A stretch of 64,000 nucleotides of DNA from Haloarcula vallismortis ATCC 29715 (GTDB lineage Archaea; Halobacteriota; Halobacteria; Halobacteriales; Haloarculaceae). Below, one piece after another: positions 58,817 to 59,269 of the stretch (its first letter is position 1; each line of letters opens with the position of its first letter). The notes under the pieces are model-generated. The model saw only the letters and a list, made by a program, of their open reading frames with translations. It ran no database searches and was not told the origin of the DNA. The stretch is taken from the NCBI RefSeq assembly GCF_000337775.1, contig NZ_AOLQ01000038.1:124001-188000 (forward strand), written 5' to 3'. The position numbers and the translations under genes were made by a program.

Positions 58817-58842
58817 AAGGCCCACCGAATATGCTTGACTGC

Positions 58843-58926
58843 GGTGGGATGGCAGAGCGGCCTATTGCGCCTGCCTTGAAAGCAGGTATCCTCACGGATT
58901 CCTGGGTTCAAATCCCAGTCCCACCG
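58843..58926 (+). tRNA. tRNA-Ser (UGA anticodon)
   Basis: An 84-base tRNA. The acceptor arm is GGTGGGA with TCCCACC and discriminator G; the anticodon stem-loop is CCTGC-CTTGAAA-GCAGG (anticodon TGA); the long variable arm (TATCCTCACGGATTC region) marks a Ser tRNA; the T arm is CTGGG-TTCAAAT-CCCAG. No CCA is encoded and no intron is seen. Directly behind it lies an array of repeated hairpins and tRNA 3'-end copies. Confidence 0.93.
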
Positions 58927-59170
58927 TATTTTGCCACGAACAAACCGTGAGTGGCAAATACATCAACTGGAATCTGAGCCCTGCAAGTCGCAGCGCACGA
59001 ACACAGTGAGTGCAACGTCTTGCTCTGGTTCAAATCCCAGTCCCACCTATTGCTCCGAGCAAATACGTGAGGAGCCACCGGTACGTGCTAGCGCTCTGAA
59101 GCCGACGAGTCCCAGCCCGCACAACGACGTGAGCAGGACCGTCTCGGCTCGGTTCAAATCTCGCCCACAG
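58927..59170. repeat. tandem array of hairpins and tRNA-Ser 3'-end copies
   Basis: The array has two units of about 122 bases directly downstream of tRNA-Ser. Each unit has two hairpins and ends with a tRNA 3'-end-like block. Hairpin stems/loops: (1) 58927-58937/58951-58960, loop 58938-58950; (2) 58995-58998/59010-59013; (3) 59052-59056/59071-59075; (4) 59116-59120/59133-59137 with one mismatch. Loops resemble one another (GAACAAACCGTGA, GAACACAGTGA, GAGCAAATACGTGA, ACAACGACGTGA), whereas stems differ but still pair. The 21-base tRNA segment at 58905-58925 recurs exactly at 59027-59047, and a decayed copy (GGTTCAAATC, then TCGCCCACA) at 59151-59169. The region is too short and irregular to be CRISPR. 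Confidence 0.75.
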
Positions 59171-59269
59171 TAACGTTCTGTCCAATCCAAGCAACCCTAA
59201 AACAGGATCGCAGAATTCACTGCCTTCTGATTCGTAGGGGTTGTTTACCAGATTAAAGCAACCGGGCGG
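59171..59269. other. gene-free stretch before the CARDB protein gene
   Basis: The stretch between the repeat array and the next promoter shows no gene, repeat or RNA signature. It adds to a gene-free zone of about 375 bases between tRNA-Ser and the coding region at 59302. Confidence 0.6.

Follow-up and report, generated by a model that had tools for sequence, protein, structure and literature searches.

Behind the tRNA-Ser(TGA) gene of Haloarcula vallismortis ATCC 29715, the 3' end of the gene reappears among a short series of hairpins. This raises the question of what these repeats are and how they came to lie there. The locus belongs to a stretch of 64,000 nucleotides (hereafter, the window), for which the original prediction had described two units, each holding two hairpins and closing with a copy of the tRNA 3' end. 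The observation was confirmed, and it extends far past the window. The 21-base tRNA segment GGTTCAAATCCCAGTCCCACC recurs exactly at 59027-59047, with a spacing of 122, and a decayed copy starts at 59151. The similar flank noticed ahead of the copies was found at 59016 and 59140, with a spacing of 124. In general, a unit opens with a first hairpin (HP1) and a short spacer; these are followed by the T arm copied in inverse (T'), by a core hairpin and, in direct orientation, by a copy of tRNA nt 53-73 (T). The coordinates are given in Table 1.

Table 1. Features of the tRNA-Ser(TGA) locus, in positions of the window
Feature	Position	Strand	Basis or remark
tRNA-Ser(TGA), host gene	58842..58927	+	ARAGORN
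T segment of the host gene: tRNA-Ser(TGA) nt 53-73 (21-base 3' end GGTTCAAATCCCAGTCCCACC at 58905-58925)	58906-58926	+	
Unit 1 (HP1 - T' - core - T), 121 nt	58927..59047	+	R1 match 58966-59041, 77.8 bits, E 3.7e-16
HP1 (hairpin 1) of unit 1: TTTGCCAC / tip GAACAAACCGTGA / GTGGCAAA	58930..58958	+	
T' of unit 1: inverted T-loop and 3' T-stem (CTGGAATCTGAGCC)	58967..58980	+	pairs with 59027-59040
Core hairpin of unit 1	58981..59026	+	stem GCAAG/CTTGC, tip stem GCAC/GTGC, tip GAACACAGTGA
T of unit 1: tRNA 3' end copied exactly	59027..59047	+	
Unit 2, anatomy as unit 1 but decayed	59048..59169	+	R1 match 59088-59165, 50 bits, E 7.5e-9
HP1 of unit 2: GCTCC / tip GAGCAAATACGTGA / GGAGC	59052..59075	+	
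Core hairpin of unit 2, GCCGACGAG..CTCGGC type	59101..59150	+	
T of unit 2: tRNA 3' end copy, decayed (GGTTCAAATCTCGCCCACA)	59151..59169	+	

Two hairpins per unit were present in both units, as predicted. Folding was strong in unit 1 (-44.8 kcal/mol, z = -5.1, a value that no shuffled sequence equalled) and weaker in unit 2 (z = -0.9), and the identity of T to the host T was 1.0 and 0.65, respectively. The loop pattern said to be shared by the hairpins corresponds to a common tip of the form GA-NN-(3-6 nt)-N'N'-GA, but the inverted T-arm copy present in each unit had been overlooked (at 58967-58980 in unit 1, CTGGAATCTGAGCC versus TTCAAATCCCAG). Since T' pairs with T, the second long hairpin is T'-core-T, and the tRNA copy forms one of its arms. 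The core of unit 1 contains a conserved internal loop, TCGCAG/AACGT, which takes the form TCGCAG/A(C)CGT across units. Among the Rfam 15 covariance models, only RF00005 (tRNA) scored above its gathering score, and no other family matched the unit. A first idea drawn from the GA..GTGA tips, that of an H/ACA guide RNA, appears less likely on inspection by eye: no K-turn bulge was seen, the tip lacking the 3-nt bulge expected above the pocket, the AAA in the place of an ANA box 3' of the hairpin is paired in T'/T, and the units are many, variable and matched to their hosts.

To follow the unit beyond the window, positions 58926-59172 were used as a BLAST query, which matched 31 of the 32 genomes of the genus Haloarcula, mostly behind tRNA genes for Ser, Asp, Gly, Arg and Glu. 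A covariance model of T'-core-T, named R1 and built from 23 sequences, then detected units in 75 of 76 genomes of the family, in 22 of its 22 genera and with up to 40 matches per genome. Across the phylum, R1 matched 31 of 33 genomes of the order and none of 164 outside it; the model includes haloarchaeal T-arm sequence and its filters were strict, so that more distant forms could escape it. Carriers include Haloarcula amylolytica, Haloferax gibbonsii, Natrialba hulunbeirensis and Halovivax asiaticus. In the window's genome, all 11 R1 matches at E<=0.02 on the unit strand are located 25-160 nt downstream of a tRNA, and a T copy lies behind 9 of its 38 tRNA genes. In two genomes from one genus of the family (G091 and G102), the distance to a preceding same-strand tRNA was 33-460 nt for 64 of 66 matches, which cover nearly all isotypes. 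Copies after other tRNA genes, which the prediction had suggested looking for, are thus present behind many of them. HP1 might also occur behind tRNAs that have no unit: a strict search for its tip was positive for 5 of 20 tRNAs with a T copy and 6 of 59 without one, compared with 32 of 2000 controls. The viral contigs, phage and plasmid collections searched held no copy of the unit, and exact core matches in bacteria and viruses were attributed to chance. The open-access literature that was searched yielded no account of tRNA-linked hairpin arrays or repeats in haloarchaea. As far as this literature goes, the tRNA-nested hairpin cassettes form a widespread and undescribed family.

Is it the structure or the sequence of the units that has been conserved? 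Compensatory changes were found in 23 of 28 pairs in an alignment of 133 distinct units, which was fitted to the model; an earlier MAFFT alignment agrees, with 10 pairs. Cells with a change on both sides numbered 564, compared with 200 +- 17 after shuffling and no more than 172 when the controls were slid, so that the covariation expected from the paired stems is significant. The inner loop retains its own paired CG, which changed once, to a compensating pair. The frequency of G-U pairs was tried as a way of telling selection on RNA from selection on DNA and did not discriminate: G-U accounts for 1.2% of pairs in core stems and is also rare, at 1.8%, in the tRNA acceptor stems of the genus.

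We then compared the unit arms with the tRNAs that they follow. The identity of T is 0.893 to its own host tRNA and 0.618 to the remaining tRNAs, the highest value in 500 permutations being 0.665; for T', the identities are 0.806 and 0.680 (highest permutation, 0.710). The inverted acceptor strand is no more similar to the host (0.616) than to other tRNAs (0.623), and T' therefore spans the T arm only. The copies have sharp edges. In 103 distinct unit ends, selected for a good inner match so that the drop at the edge is the only informative part of the profile, the match rises from 19% at tRNA nt 51 to 85% at nt 52 and 97-100% at nt 53-67, and falls from 89% at nt 73 to 58% at nt 74. The direct repeat of the tRNA 3' part (nt 53-73), which restores the gene in tRNA-targeting integrative elements, is present here as well.

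Signs of mobility were sought among related genomes. The presence of units differs between related species, a kind of variation that the original prediction had suggested looking for among strains: T copies behind Arg-CCG, Arg-GCG, Lys-CTT and Gln-TTG are present in a relative (G031) and absent from the window's genome (G000), while those behind Ser-GGA and Leu-TAA show the opposite pattern. In arrays, the T copy nearest to the tRNA was better than the farthest in 16 cases, equal in 13 and worse in 1 (p = 1.4e-4), with one of the 16 (L466) to be discounted because it comprises two separate tRNA loci. Modules are also reassorted. At Ser-TGA, HP1 type a is combined with cores A, B and D. Of 64 cores, 37 had their nearest relative at a different tRNA within the same genome, and 2 had it at the orthologous tRNA. 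In G091, a single core of about 50 nt occurs at 8 tRNA genes between flanking arms that differ and yet always pair. In one Ser-TGA array (L010:1541-1613), a single hybrid unit joins a left arm of core type B to an unpaired right arm of type A and is a deletion through recombination within the core. Two full tRNA-Asp copies, 123-124 nt apart, were found in L382 (G031) and L043 (G020); as this equals the unit spacing, whole tRNAs can duplicate inside such arrays.

One insertion was captured with both its empty and its filled site. The Thr-GGT array of G031 carries a 152-bp segment that is absent from G000, and the flanks that remain, once joined, are identical to G000 at 121 of 140 positions. 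The insert is an Asp-type unit (TTCAAATCCCGCTCCGGGCG-HP1-T'-core-CGG) with close relatives directly behind tRNA-Asp in G014, G003 and G018 (91%, 88% and 83% identity). It entered the Thr array at GG^TTCAAATCC, and its borders fall inside 13 bp, GGTTCAAATCCCG, common to both ends, i.e., the T loop. Mobility through T-loop insertion was thus shown once, as a single event with statistical support in addition. None of the 132 R1-detected units ends in a T copy of foreign isotype, and the case of an Asp-type unit in a Thr array must therefore be rare. Together with the T-loop and 3'-end edges, the array polarity and the species-variable presence, this empty/filled pair upholds the earlier proposal of a trail of cassette-like insertions at a tRNA gene.

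From the observed anatomy, distribution, covariation, host match, copy edges, polarity, reassortment and one insertion bounded by the T loop, we propose a model in which the units are non-autonomous cassettes that recombine in the T loop and restore the tRNA 3' end, a proposal that we consider about as likely as not. A cassette of about 120 bp would, as a circle, consist of tRNA nt 54-73, HP1, T' (the inverted T arm), the core hairpin and GG. It would integrate by recombination within the T loop (GG^TTCRAAT), either in the tRNA gene proper or in the T copy of a cassette that had inserted before it. Nt 1-53 would be retained by the host and nt 54-73 supplied by the cassette, so that the displaced old 3' end would turn into the direct repeat (terminal T) that closes the unit on its far side. 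With each further insertion at the gene, older units would be shifted outward, leaving exact copies near and decayed copies far from it, and crossover at the T and T' loops and within cores would allow modules to be gained, lost and reshuffled. Only 3' ends of the right isotype would keep the tRNA working, which would account for the host specificity of T and for the finding of a foreign-isotype cassette in a downstream copy. The mover would be a site-specific recombinase, probably of the tyrosine type, for which the T'-core-T hairpin with its fixed mismatches may be a single-stranded substrate, by analogy with integron attC sites. The cassettes themselves would be selfish.

Several observations weigh against this model. 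A single clean empty/filled event was found, and the 13 bp shared by the ends of the insert would equally permit microhomology-driven copying or ectopic conversion. T-loop crossover alone does not account for cores that move without their arms, as at the 8 tRNA genes of G091. The host-matched T' stems are also unaccounted for unless many rounds of selection or an added copying step are invoked; matching T' to the host and moving armless cores would need either fold-back copying or gene conversion in combination with palindrome correction. Neither a free circle nor a copy in the viral and plasmid collections was observed. No recombinase tied to the units was detected with the PF00589 profile on the window's contig (C38), where the predicted lack of a nearby integrase thus held, and no integrase gene was seen beside L001-L030, except in one island (L023). 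As units are everywhere, no recombinase gene correlates clearly with them.

An array could also have arisen passively, if the template was switched at short palindromes (a tandem inversion duplication on the micro scale, X - X' - X) with neither a dedicated enzyme nor a function, and have been kept up by homologous recombination, gene conversion and quasi-palindrome correction. T-HP1-T'-core-T does alternate as X X' X with hairpin tips at both turning points, and does so cleanly at the end of a protein gene (L144, see below). The joint change of the arms that flank the core, with pairing kept, and the non-pairing hybrid of L010, which speaks for recombination inside cores, fit as well. Palindrome correction should, however, erase the internal loops (TCGCAG/ACCGT), which stay mismatched across the order. 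A T' without the acceptor complement, the sharp copy edges, and the same core classes at unrelated tRNAs in an order-wide set of genomes also argue against a passive origin, which we consider unlikely. Covariation and fixed internal loops would also fit a functional RNA, transcribed as tRNA trailers or processed small RNAs with a role in tRNA maturation, termination or regulation; under this explanation, T' could switch between pairing with the T arm of the tRNA itself and pairing with the copy. The family of small structured RNAs suggested in the original prediction would be compatible with the conserved structure, and the G-U rate weighs neither way. The units have the strand and position of the tRNA transcript, are conserved across the order and change in a compensatory manner in 23 of 28 pairs. 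Most tRNA genes of the window's genome nevertheless lack a unit (T copy at 9 of 38), presence at the same tRNA varies among species of the genus, and distal units decay; we consider an RNA function improbable.

The remaining explanation is that larger elements, viruses or plasmids, once integrated at the tRNAs and were subsequently deleted, each leaving one end (attP arm and attR) as a unit. In its favour, T corresponds to a classical archaeal att core, and islands are located at such arrays (L011, L019 and L023, the last with a tyrosine integrase gene beside the unit). Against this stand the constant size and anatomy of units at dozens of tRNAs, which were never seen joined to a full carrier element, and the lack of units in viral contigs, phages and plasmids. 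We regard such debris as highly improbable, and an origin from an integrated virus or plasmid was rejected on the empty searches of these collections. The islands in L011, L019 and L023 are inserted beside units in tRNA arrays. In L023, the end of the tyrosine-integrase gene lies just ahead of a tRNA-Ala-type unit; the island's own att copy precedes this normal unit, which therefore belongs to the tRNA side. In L028:1290-1500, a tRNA-Gly(TCC)-like 3' half with an odd 5' part stands directly ahead of a unit and may be a tRNA fragment at the end of an island. Elsewhere in the window's genome, about 23 tRNA genes are packed into 3.6 kb (L406, G000:C4:254165-257733), a kind of cluster that large tailed viruses also carry; 15 kb upstream there is a match to a tyrosine recombinase (C4:239208), and the cluster has no clear units.

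Units were also found away from tRNAs. In Halobacterium KA-4 (L101:5170-5310), a unit behind a protein gene ends in a 17-nt copy of the gene end that starts with GTTCGAC. In Haladaptatus litoreus (L144:4380-4500), a gene end reading like purH is followed by its inverse, a core and a decayed copy. The last codons of the host gene are thus repeated directly and inverted, giving the same anatomy without a tRNA, and these two cases, read by eye from the sequence, suggest that GTTC-type secondary sites may exist; the KA-4 case counts in favour of the cassette model. Separately, the core hairpin AGTCGCAGC..GACCGTCT recurs in a second, tRNA-free intergenic element of Halorubrum/Halorussus/Haloparvum-type genomes. 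This element has an outer stem AAAGGGGC..GGGGCTTTC and a CTATC..GATATG stem, and was seen near position 1500 of L468, L469, L484 and L487, and in L098, L107, L127, L146, L147, L153, L116, L129 and L131. It is possibly a separate structured repeat or RNA.

If the cassette model is right, almost every haloarchaeal genome contains a mobile repeat that has been overlooked, rewrites tRNA genes at their 3' ends and has kept pace with dozens of different tRNAs, and archaea have an integron-like array system without cassette genes. It would also help to account for the way in which integrative elements and islands locate tRNA sites that are crowded, and it makes testable how an inverted repeat can track a host sequence as it changes. 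Should the RNA reading hold instead, the tRNA transcripts of haloarchaea bear an undescribed structured trailer. More tentatively, and with somewhat less than even confidence, we suggest that the units represent a new class of minimal, gene-free mobile elements, haloarchaea-wide and dependent on a host-encoded recombinase not previously linked to such a role, defined by single-strand folding, attachment at the T loop, restoration of the tRNA, an inverted, host-matched guide arm and integron-like arrays at tRNA genes for all isotypes.

Integron attC sites fold into long imperfect hairpins whose structure is conserved while the sequence varies, with unpaired bases that are fixed and a tip that is not, and the Vibrio cholerae repeats (VCR) form tandem arrays in steps of about 120 bp. 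The tRNA units are likewise conserved imperfect hairpins with fixed unpaired bases and a variable tip, in tandem steps of about 120 bp, and their newest member apparently adjoins the primary site. The integron-like architecture put forward in the original prediction fits in this respect, but the units showed neither an integron integrase nor attI nor an open reading frame, and they do not agree with the GTTRRRY core. Unlike integrons, the units come without intI, attI or cassette genes, each restores a tRNA 3' end, and the crossover region of the tRNA-linked units is GTTCRAN at the T loop and not GTTRRRY.

Archaeal integrases are reported to have a preference for tRNA 3' ends and to use att sites of as little as 13-14 bp (PMC8371274), a point in favour of the cassette model. 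The elements with SNJ2-, pNOB8- and SSV-type tyrosine integrases (PMC8371274) share with the units a crossover at the tRNA 3' end, a direct tail repeat and the restoration of the split tRNA. The units differ in being about 120 bp long, arrayed, present at most isotypes and equipped with an inverted T arm and a core hairpin; they carry no genes and hence no integrase of their own, unlike tRNA-targeting integrative elements.

SMR-A of Haloquadratum walsbyi are hairpin-forming, palindrome-linked repeats of about 110 bp, with no transposase and up to 54 copies, which insert in PATE/IS605 palindromes without target duplication and whose mobilization is unknown (PMC3119063). Together with the archaeal integrases above, they come nearest to the units among described systems. 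The units are set apart from SMR-A by description, 64 of 66 following tRNA genes with a 21-nt copy. With IS200/IS605, PATE and REP/RAYT elements they share single-strand hairpins with fixed mismatches, a guide-like T' before the hairpin and a target-like T after it; they differ from these elements in their 21-nt, host-matched target copy. IS200/IS605 TnpA was rejected as the mover because it is absent from unit-rich genomes: the Y1 transposase profile (PF01797) had no match in G088, G065 and G053, which contain 32, 29 and 24 units. Finally, tandem inversion duplications resemble the units in their X - X' - X order and palindromic turning points, but the units add to these a conserved, recurring core and an order-wide spread at tRNA genes.
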